Assembly: GCA_018267825.1 (NCBI GenBank)
Contig: JAFDXR010000008.1
Location: forward strand, 248,001 to 312,000
Source: Bacteroidota bacterium
GTDB lineage: Bacteria; Bacteroidota; Bacteroidia; B-17B0; Aurantibacillaceae
Direction: 5' to 3'
Length of the DNA: 64,000 nt
Positions 4,037 to 9,521 of the stretch are shown in pieces. The first letter of the stretch is position 1; every line of letters begins with the position of its first letter. A model generated the notes under the pieces. That model saw nothing but the letters and a program-made list of their open reading frames with translations, was not told the origin of the DNA and made no database searches. The translations under genes were made by a program, and so were the position numbers.

Positions 4037-4183
4037 GTGCCAAAACATGAGGATGGCTTTAAGCCTGAGTTAACTTACCGTGAAATCCAGCGAAAAGCCC
4101 TTATTTGTGTGTCAAATATCGATTTAACAATTCGGTAAAACTGGCTTTAAGTTTAGTTTATGCCCCGGTAAGATCTTTAGAAT

Positions 4184-4492
4184 ATGAAAACACTTGTATT
4201 ATCAGTCCTTTTTACATGGATTTCATGGGGTGCAATCGCCGGTGAAAACCCTACAAAAGCCGTATCCGGTAAGGTTTACGACAAAAACACCCACGAAGTG
4301 CTGGCCGGTGTAAAAGTTACTCTCGAAAATTCAAACCAGTCGGTTTACACCGATCTCAACGGCCAGTTCACCCTTTTGGTCAATAGCCAGGAACCTGCAA
4401 CACTTAAATTCAGCGGAGTGGGCTATTCTGACGAAAAAACAACCGTAACAGGCTCACTATCAGAAGTTAACATCCAACTGAGCGAATTATAA
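4184..4492 (+). CDS. Exported single-domain CarboxypepD_reg-like protein
   Basis: A 102-residue protein with a signal peptide (residues 1-20, cleavage near AIAGE). It is followed by one carboxypeptidase-regulatory-like beta-sandwich: VSGKVYDKNTHEVLAGVKVTL, then a DLNGQFTL turn and a C-terminal FSGVGYSDEK strand. This domain normally forms the N-terminus of SusC/TonB-dependent receptors or is found in surface proteins; here it stands alone. It is predicted periplasmic or cell-surface. No enzymatic residues are visible. There is no partner gene next to it, and its role is unknown. Confidence 0.8.
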   Translation: MKTLVLSVLFTWISWGAIAGENPTKAVSGKVYDKNTHEVLAGVKVTLENSNQSVYTDLNGQFTLLVNSQEPATLKFSGVGYSDEKTTVTGSLSEVNIQLSEL

Positions 4493-4502
4493 GCTTTACA
4501 TT

Positions 4503-4519
4503 TGTAAAGTTAATGTTAA
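4503..4519 (-). promoter_or_regulatory. Pho-box-like direct repeat (third copy, one mismatch)
   Basis: On the minus strand this reads TTAACATTAACTTTACA, two TTAACA-type hexamers 11 bp apart. It differs by one base from the box before the PiT transporter at 8051-8067. It lies just after the CarboxypepD_reg gene and 112 bp before the MORN-repeat gene, in inverted orientation relative to that gene. It partly overlaps a 7-bp inverted repeat (4494-4500 with 4503-4509). Function is uncertain. Confidence 0.35.
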
Positions 4520-4599
4520 CCCAATGGGCAAAAAAGTTTACCTGAATGCGAATTTGAGGTAAAATTTCAATAACCCGTTTCTCCATTAAGCGTATAATT

Positions 4600-4630
4600 G
4601 TGTAAAGATTTTCATTTTAAATTTTTACAC
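4600..4630 (+). other. Inverted repeat directly before the MORN gene start
   Basis: GTGTAAA (4600-4606) pairs with TTTACAC (4624-4630), one base before the ATG at 4632. If transcribed, the hairpin would hold the ribosome-entry region; if not, it is an AT-rich palindromic operator candidate. Confidence 0.35.
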
Positions 4631-4631
4631 T

Positions 4632-5096
4632 ATGAAAAAGTTAATCCTCATTGCCTGCTTCGCTCTCGGAACCCTGACCCAGGCTCAAAACATTACAATG
4701 GTAGATGGCCTTTACAAAGAGGACGGTAAATTATATACCGGACCTGTAACGAGCTATAATGAGAACGGTGCAAAAAAGTCTGAAGCATATGCTAAAGACG
4801 GCTTACTCGAAGGCAAAGTGATTTATTTTTATGACAATGGCCGGATCATGGAGGAAGGTACATATACTGCGGGTTTGAAAGCCGGTTTATGGACTCGTTT
4901 CAATAATGCCGGCATCAAAATAGGTGAAGCCGGTTATGATCATGGCAAGAAAAACGGTACCTGGATGGTATACGACGATAACGGTCAGAAACGCTTCCAG
5001 ATGTCGTACAAGGACGGTGAAAAAACCGGAACCTGGCTTCAATGGGACGAACGCGGCGAAGTCATTAAAAGCACCGCTTACAATACGATGAATTAA
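4632..5096 (+). CDS. Exported MORN-repeat (YwqK-type) protein
   Basis: A 154-residue protein with a signal peptide (residues 1-18, cleavage near TQAQ). It is followed by about five MORN_2-type repeats of some 23 residues, each built around a G-x-W/F-x-x-Y/F-x-x-x-G pattern (for example GKVIYFYDNG, GLWTRFNNAG, GTWMVYDDNG, GTWLQWDERG). Databases often label such proteins toxin-antitoxin YwqK-family antitoxins, but no toxin gene is beside it, so I do not adopt that function. It is predicted periplasmic or surface-exposed, and the repeats suggest a binding scaffold. It ends at a strong terminator and appears monocistronic. Confidence 0.8.
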   Translation: MKKLILIACFALGTLTQAQNITMVDGLYKEDGKLYTGPVTSYNENGAKKSEAYAKDGLLEGKVIYFYDNGRIMEEGTYTAGLKAGLWTRFNNAGIKIGEAGYDHGKKNGTWMVYDDNGQKRFQMSYKDGEKTGTWLQWDERGEVIKSTAYNTMN

Positions 5097-5131: not shown

Positions 5132-6319
5132 TTATTCGACTTCGTAACCAAACAACATCACGTCGTCGGTTTGTTCGGCCTCTCCTTTCCACATATTGAA
5201 AATAGACTCGAGTTCCAGCTGCTGTACCTGTATGGGGAAAGGCTGCATGGAAACAAGTGTGCTCTTAAGTCGTTTGGTCAGAAATTTCTTTCCGCTTTTT
5301 CCAAACTGATCAGCAAATCCATCTGTTTTCAGGTAAATGCGGTCCTTTCGCTGCAACTGCAAACGGTGTGTTTTAAATGTTTTGTCGCGCTCCAGCTGAA
5401 ACCCGCCAATAGGATAACGCATGCCTTTATATTCCTGTAAGGTGTTATTGCTTACCAGCCACAGGTTATGCAGGGCACCTGCAAACTGGGCCTGTTTTTG
5501 CTTGCGGTCAATAATCATCAGGCCTATATCCATGCCCTCATACATGCGTTCGGTATGTGTCTGGTTGTTGAGGGCATTCACCATCATCATGTTCAGCTCT
5601 TTGAGTATGGTACCCGCATCCATAATGCGCTTATCGAATACAAGCTGATTGAGAAACATGTTGCCCATAATCGACGTAAGTGCGCCGGGAACACCGTGGC
5701 CCGTGCAGTCGGCCACTGCCACAAATAAACTATCGTAGCATTCGGCATACCAGAAGAAATCGCCACTCACGACATCCTTTGGTTTATTGAAGATGAATGA
5801 TGTATTGTACTTATTGAGAAAATAATTCTGGCTGGGCAGCACGGCGCTTTGAATCCGCTTGGCACTCTTGAGGCTGTCGAGATGATCGTGATGTTTCTGA
5901 TCAACCTGTTTGAAATCTTCCTTGAGCAACAGGTGCTGATCTTTATCAACCTGATTAAGCCGCTTATGCACGCGTGCCACAAGTTCCTTGAGTTTAAAGG
6001 GCTTGGTGAGGTAATCGTCGGCTCCGTTATTCAGGGCATCGGTAATAAAACGGGATGTATTATGGCAAGTGACCATAATAAAAGGAATGAGTTTGTAACG
6101 GATGTTTGCTTTGAGCAGTTTCAATAAATCGAAACCACTCATGCCGGGCAACATCCAGTCGCAAATAATGAGATCGGGCAAAGTCCTGCTCTGAAAGCCT
6201 TCCAGGGCCGATTCGCAATCGCTGTATACCGACACCTGGAAGCCCTCTTTGTCAAGATTATATTTAATGATGTCGAGAACGTCGTTTTCGTCGTCTATGA
6301 CTGCTATCTGAACGGGCAT
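5132..6319 (-). CDS. Response-regulator receiver fused to SpoIIE-type PP2C phosphatase
   Basis: A receiver domain comes first (acidic pair DDE, phospho-acceptor D54 in ICDWMLPG, Lys in YLTKPF). A helical linker with SAKRIQSAVLPS follows, then a PP2C_SIG/SpoIIE phosphatase. The phosphatase metal residues are visible in SGDFFW, VADCTGHGVPGA, KTDGFADQFG and QTDDVMLF. Such proteins dephosphorylate serine/threonine on anti-sigma-antagonist-like partners when the receiver is phosphorylated. No STAS or serine-kinase partner lies nearby. I chose ATG at 6319; an in-frame ATG at 6346 adds nine residues, but then little room remains for a leader below the palindrome at 6350-6366. Two more phosphatases of this class occur in the window. 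Confidence 0.9.
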   Translation of the reverse strand: MPVQIAVIDDENDVLDIIKYNLDKEGFQVSVYSDCESALEGFQSRTLPDLIICDWMLPGMSGFDLLKLLKANIRYKLIPFIMVTCHNTSRFITDALNNGADDYLTKPFKLKELVARVHKRLNQVDKDQHLLLKEDFKQVDQKHHDHLDSLKSAKRIQSAVLPSQNYFLNKYNTSFIFNKPKDVVSGDFFWYAECYDSLFVAVADCTGHGVPGALTSIMGNMFLNQLVFDKRIMDAGTILKELNMMMVNALNNQTHTERMYEGMDIGLMIIDRKQKQAQFAGALHNLWLVSNNTLQEYKGMRYPIGGFQLERDKTFKTHRLQLQRKDRIYLKTDGFADQFGKSGKKFLTKRLKSTLVSMQPFPIQVQQLELESIFNMWKGEAEQTDDVMLFGYEVE

Positions 6320-6349
6320 GGCGCAAATTACGCCACACAGCATCACTAT

Positions 6350-6433: not shown

Positions 6434-7810
6434 TTAAAAGGCGAGCTGATACTGCAATACGTATGAGCCTTTGCGTGTTTGCTGATGTACATCGCCGAAC
6501 GCATCTTCAAAAAAGCAGGGTCTGTTCTGGTAGTTGAGCGTAAACTTGGAGTTATGTCCTTTAATAAGCCAGTTGATTCCTGCATCGAATACCACCATTG
6601 GGTCTTTGAGGCGTGTGTAATCGGCATACTGGCAATCGCCATACACCTGCAGTGTTCCCTGGTTGCCAAGGAGATTGTTCTTGAATTTATAAGCCGTTTG
6701 GATATAGTATACATTACCGGTTCCCAGGTAAGGAAATGCATTTCCGTAGCTGGCTTTGTTGAATAGGGTTGGGGTTTTAAGGCTGGTTGAACTGGCCGGA
6801 TTGTCAGGGCCAGATACTTTAATGAATTTTGAACCATAATTGTAATTCGAGTAGCAGGCATATACATTGAATGCTGTTCCGCGATCTTTATTTACAGGCG
6901 TATCATAAAACACATCGAGGGCTGCGAGCATAATGTCCTGTTGCACGGTATCTTTCTGTGTCAATGAAACCTGGTGGAACATGGCGTTTTTCTGATAGAA
7001 AAATCCGCCGCCGATATTGAATACACGTTTGTTTCCGAGGTAGGTTCCTGCTGTGCCAGGTCCGGCGTTACTTTCCTGGTCGAGGAATTGGTACATGAGG
7101 TATCCCTGGTATACCAGGTTTGGCGGCAATGTAGAGAATGTAGAGTTGGTATTGATCGGATCTACCGTGGTGGTCTGTATCACAAAGGGCTTGGCGGCCG
7201 ACAGGCGGTAATCGAGTTTGCCGAGTTTACCTTTGGCATAAACACCCAAACGACGCACAAAAATATCGTAGGTATCGTTGGTTACTTCCTGATAACCCGG
7301 AGGATCGAGCACCATAATGCTGCCTACCGATGTGTTGGAAAAACGCGAAGGTCCGTTCCAGCCATTGAGACCAAAGCCCAGGGAAAATTTCTTTTTAATG
7401 ACGGCATAATCCGCCGTAACATCGTGAAAGAAGCTTCCGGCCTTGCGGGCGGCGAGGTAGTTCAGGTTATTTTGTCCGAACTGTACAAAAAACGAGATAC
7501 GATCGCTGAGTTGTCCGCTTAATACAAAACGGATGCGTCGGATGCTGGCATCGGTGGTATAATCCTGTGGAGTACCCTGTACGGCACTGTTCGGGTTATT
7601 TTCGTTGTAGCGTAACCAGATCTGGCTGCACATGTTAAGTTTAATGAATAAAGAACTGTCTTTGCTATCGATATAATACCGAAGGCCGTCTTTTAATTTG
7701 AATCCGCTTTGAGCATGCAGGGAAACAGTGGCTCCCAGGCTCATGATGACAGCCGCTGTCCATATACGGAGGGCTTTTTTGGTAGTAGATGCTGATAACA
7801 TAAGTTTCAA
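6434..7810 (-). CDS. Outer-membrane porin, OprP/OprO-like, probable phosphate porin
   Basis: A 458-residue protein with a signal peptide (residues 1-34, cleavage after SLHAQ) and a long series of alternating aromatic beta-strands ending in the outer-membrane signal YVLQYQLAF. The overall pattern (GFKLKDGLRYYIDS, RRIRFVLSGQLSDRISFFVQFG) fits phosphate-selective porins O/P. It is divergent from a PiT phosphate transporter, and both genes carry Pho-box-like repeats, so phosphate uptake is the likely job. It would act as the outer-membrane step feeding the inner-membrane carrier. The substrate is inferred from context; the porin family also handles other anions. Confidence 0.75.
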   Translation of the reverse strand: MKLMLSASTTKKALRIWTAAVIMSLGATVSLHAQSGFKLKDGLRYYIDSKDSSLFIKLNMCSQIWLRYNENNPNSAVQGTPQDYTTDASIRRIRFVLSGQLSDRISFFVQFGQNNLNYLAARKAGSFFHDVTADYAVIKKKFSLGFGLNGWNGPSRFSNTSVGSIMVLDPPGYQEVTNDTYDIFVRRLGVYAKGKLGKLDYRLSAAKPFVIQTTTVDPINTNSTFSTLPPNLVYQGYLMYQFLDQESNAGPGTAGTYLGNKRVFNIGGGFFYQKNAMFHQVSLTQKDTVQQDIMLAALDVFYDTPVNKDRGTAFNVYACYSNYNYGSKFIKVSGPDNPASSTSLKTPTLFNKASYGNAFPYLGTGNVYYIQTAYKFKNNLLGNQGTLQVYGDCQYADYTRLKDPMVVFDAGINWLIKGHNSKFTLNYQNRPCFFEDAFGDVHQQTRKGSYVLQYQLAF

Positions 7811-7876
7811 TGTATTTTTTAGGTTACAAAATAATTAAGCAAAAGCTTACATTATGTTTCCATAAACTATCTATAA

Positions 7877-7893
7877 TGTTAAGCTAATGTTAA
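7877..7893 (-). promoter_or_regulatory. Pho-box-like direct repeat facing the porin
   Basis: The minus strand reads TTAACATTAGCTTAACA: two perfect TTAACA hexamers separated by 5 bp (11-bp period), 66 bp before the porin start. This is the arrangement known for PhoP boxes in Bacillus and resembles PhoB-type 11-bp repeats. The regulator itself is not in the window. Confidence 0.6.
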
Positions 7894-8050
7894 TTTTAAA
7901 CGGGACTGATTTGGCTACTAAACGCTTTAGATACCATTCAACTGATAATTAACCGGATAGCTGTTTCGGGATTTTATGCCGGAAACTGCCTTAAATGGGG
8001 GGATTATGCATATAGCTTAACATTGGGATACATTAAGCTTTAAATCTAAT

Positions 8051-8067
8051 TTAACATTAACTTAACA
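8051..8067 (+). promoter_or_regulatory. Pho-box-like direct repeat facing the PiT transporter
   Basis: TTAACATTAACTTAACA, two perfect TTAACA hexamers 11 bp apart, ends 20 bp before the -7 element at 8088. This is where a PhoB/PhoP-type activator would sit in place of a -33 element. It matches the porin-side box at 16 of 17 positions. Confidence 0.65.
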
Positions 8068-8087: not shown

Positions 8088-8095
8088 TACTTTTG
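8088..8095 (+). promoter_or_regulatory. -7 element of the PiT transporter gene
   Basis: TACTTTTG matches TAnnTTTG and lies 22 bp before the ATG. No good -33 motif is present at 19-20 bp, in keeping with activator dependence through the adjacent Pho-like box. Confidence 0.55.
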
Positions 8096-8117: not shown

Positions 8118-9521
8118 ATGTTTGGACTAACAACAGGACTAGCGATCTTACTGGTTATATGCTTATTATTAGCATTCTTCTTTGAATTCATTAACGGGTT
8201 TCACGATACAGCCAATGCCGTGGCCACCGTTATCTATACAAACACATTAAAACCTACTGTAGCGGTTGTATTCAGTGGTTTATTAAACTTTACAGGTGTT
8301 ATGCTGGGTGGTATCACAGTAGCCATGGGTATTGTGAACCTCCTCCCGATGGAAGCCCTGGTTGATGCCAATGTATACCACAGTGTGGCACTGGTCATGG
8401 CACTTCTGTTAAGTGCAATTATCTGGAACTTCGGTACCTGGTATTTCGGAATTCCTGCATCGAGCTCACACACGGTTATCGGAGCTGTGCTCGGGATCGG
8501 GTTTGCATTCTATTGCATATCTGACTACAACGGACCGGATCCCGTAAACTGGAAAAAAGCACAGGATACCCTGCTTTTCTTATTTGTATCGCCACTGGTT
8601 GGTTTCGCCCTCTCCATTGTAATTATGTATGTATTCAAAAGGCTCGTGAAAAACGATTATATCTACAAAGAGCCTATTCCTGGTAAAAAACCACCGCTGT
8701 GGATCCGCGCCCTGCTTACATTGACCTGCGGTACAGTAAGTTTTGTTCACGGGCAGAACGACGGACAAAAAGGGGTTGGTCTCGTGATGCTCATCCTCAT
8801 TGCCATTCTGCCGGGTTATTTCGCCATCAAATCAGACCACGATCTTTCGGTAACGACAGCCAACATCAATAAGATCGAGTTCCTGATGCATAAAACGGAT
8901 ACAACCTTATTATCTGAAAAAGAATATCACATGTGGAAGGATATTGAAACGAATAACGCTTCTTTAACCGCCATGTTTGCCGGCAAGAAAACAGCTGAAG
9001 AGATTGATGTAAAAGAGCGTTTCGGTATCCGCAAAAGTATTATCAAAATCACCAAAGGTGCTGAAAAGCTGATCGAAGGTGGTAACCTTTCATTAAGCCA
9101 GAATGAAATCGGTGAAGTTCAGAAAGAAGTAAAAGTGGCTAAGAAATTTATTGAATATGCGCCACAGTGGGTTATTATCGGTATTTCCATTGCACTGGGT
9201 CTTGGTACCATGGTGGGCTGGAAACGTATTGTAAAAACCATTGGTGAAAAAATCGGTAAACAGCACATGAGCTATGCACAGGGTGCCAGTGCCGAGATCA
9301 CCGCCAGTATCCTTATTGGTGTAGCTACCTGGTCGAGTAAACCCATCAGTACCACACACTCCCTGAGTAGTGGTATAGCGGGTGCCATGGTGGCCAAAAA
9401 AGGTCTGAAAAATCTCCAGAAGAAAACCGTGAAGAGCATTATCCTGGCCTGGGTACTTACATTGCCTGTAACCATCGTGCTTTCGGGATCATTATTCTTA
9501 TTGTTCCGCTGGTTACTGTAA
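8118..9521 (+). CDS. Inorganic phosphate transporter, PiT family
   Basis: A 467-residue inner-membrane carrier with about ten membrane segments. The two inverted PiT signatures are present: GFHDTANAVAT (residues 27-37) and a second copy near the C-terminus around GASAEITASILIG and SKPISTTHSLSSG. A further VHGQNDGQKGVG motif lies mid-protein. A hydrophilic central loop of about 110 residues (roughly 235-345) separates the halves. PiT proteins import phosphate, usually as metal phosphate, with protons or sodium. The divergent porin and shared Pho-like boxes support a phosphate-starvation role, although PiT genes are constitutive in some bacteria. Confidence 0.93.
   Translation: MFGLTTGLAILLVICLLLAFFFEFINGFHDTANAVATVIYTNTLKPTVAVVFSGLLNFTGVMLGGITVAMGIVNLLPMEALVDANVYHSVALVMALLLSAIIWNFGTWYFGIPASSSHTVIGAVLGIGFAFYCISDYNGPDPVNWKKAQDTLLFLFVSPLVGFALSIVIMYVFKRLVKNDYIYKEPIPGKKPPLWIRALLTLTCGTVSFVHGQNDGQKGVGLVMLILIAILPGYFAIKSDHDLSVTTANINKIEFLMHKTDTTLLSEKEYHMWKDIETNNASLTAMFAGKKTAEEIDVKERFGIRKSIIKITKGAEKLIEGGNLSLSQNEIGEVQKEVKVAKKFIEYAPQWVIIGISIALGLGTMVGWKRIVKTIGEKIGKQHMSYAQGASAEITASILIGVATWSSKPISTTHSLSSGIAGAMVAKKGLKNLQKKTVKSIILAWVLTLPVTIVLSGSLFLLFRWLL

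Follow-up and report, generated by a model that had tools for sequence, protein, structure and literature searches.

Between an outer-membrane porin gene and a divergent phosphate transporter gene lie two 17-nt direct repeats, which very probably serve as docking sites of a phosphate-starvation regulator. At a probability of roughly 0.8, we read them as PhoB-type operators which the response regulator encoded at G000:C5:65287-65976 would bind in phosphate scarcity, activating the porin, the PiT transporter, a TonB-dependent receptor and a pair of secreted proteins. The phosphate regulon so defined would be small, in bacteria most of which are without the usual high-affinity phosphate pump, and its sites recur at matching places in dozens of related genomes. 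With this prediction, much of the Bacteroidota can be searched for a defined Pho operator, and a specific regulator and a minimal set of targets are named. A further question follows: by what means do cells sense phosphate if they lack the customary Pst-PhoU sensor?

Two Pho-type boxes in the porin-PiT gap

Our analysis starts from a window of 64 kb, the whole stretch of DNA under study. A gap of 316 bp separates its minus-strand porin gene (6434..7801) from its plus-strand PiT gene (8118..9521, with the ATG at 8118). This gap holds two 17-mers: TTAACATTAGCTTAACA on the minus strand at 7893-7877 (7877..7893) in the porin promoter, and TTAACATTAACTTAACA on the plus strand at 8051-8067 in the PiT promoter. 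The initial annotation had described each of them as a direct repeat of TTAACA with an 11-bp period, oriented towards its own gene, the two being identical at 16 of 17 positions. Positions and letters proved exact, and the repeat, its orientation and the degree of identity are all seen in the sequence. Like a Pho box, both window boxes consist of two 11-nt direct-repeat units. The PiT box is preceded by an extra TTAACA at position 8018, at a distance of 33 bp (3 x 11), and the operator may extend in register.

The plus-strand product is a PiT/PitA-type inorganic phosphate transporter (PF01384, E 2.1e-85). The porin carries the Porin_O_P domain of OprO/OprP (PF07396, E 3.9e-5), with a match of 23.5 bits that is barely above the cut-off of 20.9. 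Its start is more likely the ATG at 7801 than the mechanically called TTG at 7810. A response regulator with a SpoIIE-type phosphatase output domain (5132-6346) adjoins the porin, and no box was seen at this gene.

The bare core is not enriched in the genome, contrary to what the initial annotation had expected: allowing at most one mismatch, TTAACA-N5-TTAACA occurs 47 times in 4.82 Mb and its reversed control 46 times, so the core alone is too weak as evidence. Exact cores number six, two of which are the window boxes; the other four (L001-L004) lie at unrelated or unclear genes and were set aside. The signal is carried by the extended box and its placement. With up to three mismatches, the 17-mer is found three times in the window against 0.44 expected, and across 30 genomes the full 17-mer with at most one mismatch has 45 occurrences, compared with 15 of the control.

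Conservation of the boxes in related genomes

We sampled 79 PiT loci from GTDB genomes, 78 of which had upstream DNA. A box with at most one mismatch lies within 160 nt upstream of the PiT start at 60 of these 78 loci (30 perfect) and is missing at this level from the other 18. Controls on the PiT upstream regions returned 1-4 loci for spacings other than 5 and 0-5 loci for the reversed hexamer. Relatives carry their boxes on the plus strand, and most are located between -55 and -75. A porin box with at most one mismatch is present at 31 of 34 relatives' loci. As expected of a Pho box, the sites thus stand in conserved promoters of phosphate acquisition genes (PiT and porin) across species.

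In most relatives the porin gene is directly upstream of PiT and co-directional with it, and each gene has its own box, one located about 90 nt before the porin start and the second inside the 50–120 nt gap between the genes. The domain PF07396 was matched by 29 of the 34 scanned members of the upstream-gene alignment, which took in the window porin and a few unrelated neighbours. Judged from these arrangements, the co-directional pair with twin boxes appears to be the ancestral layout and the divergent pair of the window a rearranged form; the near-identity of the window 17-mers would reflect a common operator. At several loci (L048, L054, L055, L063, L067, L071 and L083), two PiT-sized genes stand in tandem with the box at the first.

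A sequence model built only from relatives was used to scan the genome. It contained 58 of the 91 relatives' boxes, mostly degenerate ones having been dropped by eye, which gives a sharper model. Among the 150 of 2243 first-look candidates that were scored, a non-exhaustive scan, the porin and PiT boxes of the window ranked first and second (E 0.0021 and 0.0031), and the next match had an E value of 0.19. These weaker matches (E 0.19 and above) are in or beside unrelated genes, except for C5:66078, between the regulator and the TonB-dependent receptor. The weaker window sites at 4124 and 4503 were not listed among the scored candidates.

A weight matrix was trained without the window on 68 PiT boxes (of 78 loci, at most two mismatches) and 31 porin boxes (of 34 loci; L050, L069 and L079 left out). 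The four best window sites were 8051 (25.2), 7877 (24.0), 4503 (19.1) and 4124 (11.8), followed by a score of 8.3. Scores of at least 11 were reached in 36 of 410 other upstream regions, against 10 with the reversed motif, and this reversed control was also high at porins (15/38). The threshold was reached by one of eight other regulator-like genes, by none of nine PstB-like genes and by none of four PhoU genes. Since the threshold alone is loose, we relied on position and spacing. Many of the other regions that score at least 14 are neighbours sharing the porin or PiT region, which the redoxin gene set does not. This set comprises a gene for a secreted redoxin-like protein, located 4-6 kb away from PiT (L034:10409-11020, also in L035, L040, L042, L046 and L047), with a box-like upstream site scoring 14–16.5 at the six loci, two of which were covered by a Pfam scan. 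It is a possible further member of the regulon.

Fixed distance between the box and the -7 element

The Bacteroidota -7 promoter element has the consensus TAnnTTT(G). Such an element of PiT, TACTTTTG, is located at 8088..8095 on the plus strand and starts 20 nt after the end of the box. Among PiT promoters, the window included, TAnnTTT starts 19-20 nt past the box end in 42 of 71 cases, and at other distances it is at background. The -7 element of the regulator promoters starts 20–21 nt past the box end in 24 of 26, and in 23 of 31 porin promoters of relatives TnnnTTTG starts at 31 nt. The window porin has a single TnnnTTTG-type element, at an offset of 42 nt (20 + 2 x 11); this sequence, TTATTTTG (7827..7834, minus strand), is the candidate porin -7 element.

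The distances of 20, 31 and 42 nt are steps of exactly 11 bp, which is one repeat unit or one helical turn. From these distances to the -7 element, the box would replace the -33 element or sit one or two turns upstream of it. As in a Pho box, the distance to the core promoter element is fixed, at 20 nt for PiT and the regulator and at 31 nt for the porin. The activator site and the unusual Bacteroidota promoter would be held in a geometry quantised by helical turns. We infer activation; the box is placed as expected of an activator.

A PhoB-like regulator with a box at its own gene

The regulator that would bind these operators is very likely the one encoded elsewhere in the same genome, at G000:C5:65287-65976. 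It combines a receiver domain (PF00072) with an OmpR-type winged-helix DNA-binding domain (PF00486), as PhoB does, and it matches chains of the E. coli PhoB DNA-binding domain. We call it PhoB-like because it falls below the curated PhoB cut-offs (TIGR02154, 230.5 of 296.2; Bacteroidota PhoB NF053854, 209.9 of 270); the TIGR02154 cut-off was exceeded in only 2 of 14 control genomes. The genome holds 62 matches to the PhoB model, among which the C5 protein is the one clear PhoB-like regulator. It is paired with an adjacent PhoR/PnpS-like kinase (best matches PnpS and PhoR, both below cut-off), and in Flavobacterium-like genomes there are phosphate genes nearby.

Of the 30 genomes, 28 have an orthologue of the C5 regulator, at 69-87% identity; across the phylum, 111 of 296 genomes have one at E <= 1e-70. 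At 26 of 30 regulator loci, the region upstream of the regulator's own gene contains a box scoring >= 11.4, and 25 reach a shuffle p <= 0.05; the other four loci lack the box. This boxed promoter agrees with the autoregulation known for PhoB. The divergent TonB-dependent receptor is often boxed on the opposite strand, and the intergenic site C5:66078 ranks sixth in the genome scan. In Flavobacterium-like genomes, the gene order around the orthologue is glycosyltransferase-porin-kinase-regulator-receptor-lipoprotein, with pst-type genes alongside in L271; boxes are located before or beside pst-type genes in these genomes. The pst genes, glycosyltransferase and lipoprotein were identified by eye from translations. 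In G025 and G011, the regulator, the two secreted-protein genes described below, the receptor and PiT share one neighbourhood. G029 keeps a PiT box with no regulator orthologue at E 1e-60, and G001 has boxes and Pst with no C5-type orthologue at that threshold.

A second, divergent response regulator occurs in the same cluster (L168:12984-13673; L174:13701-14375) and is immediately before the boxed porin in G025. Another kinase-regulator pair, at L004 (G000:C29:329153-329190), is immediately preceded by two TTAACA-type repeats that lie on the opposite strand.

A pair of secreted proteins as predicted regulon members

Two plus-strand genes of the window are also predicted to join the regulon, which would add two conserved genes to phosphate physiology. 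The first (4184..4492) encodes a small secreted CarboxypepD_reg-like protein of 102 aa and the second (4632..5096) a secreted MORN-repeat protein of 154 aa. A weaker box, TTAACAATTCGGTAAAA, is located at 4124..4140 on the plus strand, 60 nt before the ATG at 4184, and has the fourth-best matrix score in the window. The third-best score belongs to TTAACATTAACTTTACA (4503..4519), a box in reverse orientation, on the minus strand, between the two genes.

A box about 60 nt before the start of the first gene is present at 22 of 22 relatives' loci with such a gene (shuffle p <= 0.02), the best site being on the other strand at two of them; in relatives this gene was taken as the nearest upstream frame, so its homology is not proved each time. 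The reverse box between the genes was recovered at 19 of 24 relatives' loci with a shuffle p <= 0.05. Close relatives of the MORN gene (E <= 1.8e-29) occur in 25 of 30 genomes, the own genome included, and the pair adjoins the regulator in several genomes (G011, G020 and G025).

Comparison with known phosphate regulons

The Bacillus subtilis PhoP box consists of TTAACA-like hexamers every 11 bp. The boxes described here have the same type of hexamer and the same period, and differ in phylum, sigma factor and target set. The B. subtilis site has repeat features in common with the E. coli Pho box, which is made of two 11-nt direct-repeat units, each with a conserved core, CTGTCAT, and a less conserved spacer (PMC4415409). 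Our boxes also have two 11-nt units, with (C)TTAACAT as the core instead of CTGTCAT. Unlike in E. coli, they are paired with the Bacteroidota -7 element TAnnTTTG and not with a -10 box, and PhoU and a recognisable PstB are absent from nearly all genomes tested here.

Within the phylum, DAP-seq of Riemerella anatipestifer PhoP gave 583 peaks, with TTTAACA as the most conserved nucleotides and a motif that was read as ArcA-like; this PhoP binds the upstream region of its own phoPR, and the RR-HK operon is raised by phosphate starvation (PMC9603813). The two systems have in common the phylum, the TTTAACA core of the half-site and self-binding or a self-box. Unlike the present case, the relevant passages of that report mention neither a repeat box of 11-bp period nor a porin or PiT pair (PMC9603813). 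Going by what it describes, this type of operator has an experimental precedent in the phylum, and we regard ours not as a new kind but as a box of the Pho type within a pared-down regulon.

In Flavobacterium johnsoniae, the phosphate-starvation phoBR locus Fjoh_0541-0546 has the order GT-OprP-PhoR-PhoB-TonB receptor-lipoprotein (PMC8115612), and this order recurs around orthologues of the C5 regulator. Phosphate depletion raised the receptor and the lipoprotein by 8 and 10 log2 and PhoB by 3.06 log2, and plant-associated members without Pst are described (PMC8115612). The OprP of this locus did not respond to depletion (log2 -1.3, p 0.25; PMC8115612). Together with the weak PF07396 match, this makes the earlier claim that the boxes give the porin a substrate only suggestive. 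The main text of the same report gives no binding site for the PHO regulon (PMC8115612). In the open-access PMC literature, we did not find a Bacteroidota Pho box with 11-bp repeats. Our searches of it likewise turned up no account of the full repeat box, of a core target set made up of PiT and porin, of distance classes separated by 11 bp or of the two secreted proteins.

Proposed mechanism and alternative explanations

The initial annotation predicted a PhoB/PhoP-type regulon with this motif in the lineage. Boxes before the porin, PiT and the PhoB-like regulator of relatives support this prediction, as do the phoBR gene order, the boxes at pst-type genes and the TTTAACA half-site reported in Riemerella (PMC9603813). 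In the mechanism that we propose, scarce phosphate would lead the PhoR-like kinase to phosphorylate the C5 regulator, which would then occupy the 11-bp repeats of the box in head-to-tail fashion and bring RNA polymerase to the Bacteroidota -7 element. In the PiT and regulator promoters, the box would take the -33 position, 20 nt ahead of the -7 element; in the porin promoter it would act from a position one or two helical turns more distant (31 nt in relatives, probably 42 nt in the window). The cell would make more of the porin, the route through the outer membrane, and more of PiT at the inner membrane; expression of the TonB-dependent receptor and of the two secreted proteins (4184-5096) would rise with them.

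Chance is an exceedingly improbable source of the repeats. Intergenic DNA is AT-rich and the bare core is no commoner than its reversed control (47 vs 46), but sequence, orientation and position are conserved in tens of genomes, the distance to the -7 element is fixed, and the window boxes hold the first two ranks genome-wide by the relatives' model (150 of 2243 candidates scored). We rejected a chance origin on conservation, fixed spacing and genome rank. The boxes could also be real operators of another OmpR/PhoB-family regulator, such as the second one three genes from C5 or the C29 pair, which would answer to an envelope or metal signal with phosphate being incidental. Related OmpR-family regulators recognise similar 11-bp repeats, and the 62 PhoB-model matches leave many candidates of this family. 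The regulator L168:12984-13673, which shares the cluster and in G025 directly precedes the boxed porin, the TTAACA tandems before a different kinase-regulator pair at L004, and the PiT box of G029 all point the same way. Still, it is the C5 regulator's own gene that is boxed with the fixed -7 spacing, the targets of the box are phosphate transport genes, and the orthologues stand in phoBR gene order with pst-type genes nearby, so that we regard control by another regulator as unlikely.

The direction of control is a separate matter. A PhoB-type regulator might bind the boxes and repress PiT, turning the low-affinity carrier off in starvation while activating its other targets. Repression of pit by PhoB is known in Sinorhizobium and for E. 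coli pitB, and a regulator in Pst-less genomes could have opposite outputs. The PiT box, however, is in the -33 region with 20 nt to the -7 element, as at the regulator promoter, and this is the usual activating geometry. Shutting off PiT would also make little sense with PstB above its cut-off in 1 of 10 and PhoU found in 1 of 30 genomes, yet one Na/Pi cotransporter is present. Repression of PiT seems to us quite improbable, and we favor activation of both porin and PiT by the C5 regulator.

Lack of PhoU and of a recognisable PstB, and possible phosphate sensors

Neither PhoU nor a PstB above cut-off was found in the window's genome. Many ABC ATPases matched the PstB model in the 10 genomes searched, and the cut-off was exceeded in G001 only. 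PhoU was absent from 29 of the 30 genomes G000-G029 and present only in G001, in a search that recovered 13 of 14 controls. In three extra genomes, picked for pstB-phoU-like genes flanking PiT, PhoU was found as expected. Since G000 has one Na/Pi cotransporter, with no PhoU domain detected, PiT is not its sole possible importer. At L031/L176, L052, L053 and L084, a pst-phoU operon is directly before PiT, and L031 has a porin in between and a triple half-site box. This arrangement suggests that the control of PiT and porin descends from a Pho operon with Pst genes, which other genomes have lost.

A more speculative picture, which we put forward tentatively, is that of a stripped-down Pho circuit without PstSCAB and PhoU. 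Its main outputs would be PiT, a dedicated porin and the conserved secreted pair, the latter in putative phosphate scavenging. The 11-bp-quantised distances (20, 31 and 42) could set promoter strength or threshold, and PiT or its large central insert may replace PhoU as the sensor. In other systems, PitR and NptA-type accessory proteins can sense phosphate (PMC13170248). An orphan PstS-like phosphate-binding lipoprotein (L173:10036-10968) is divergent to a PhoB-like regulator in a genome without PhoU, and could possibly be a sensor rather than a transporter. A gene of similar size is found at the matching position in L245.
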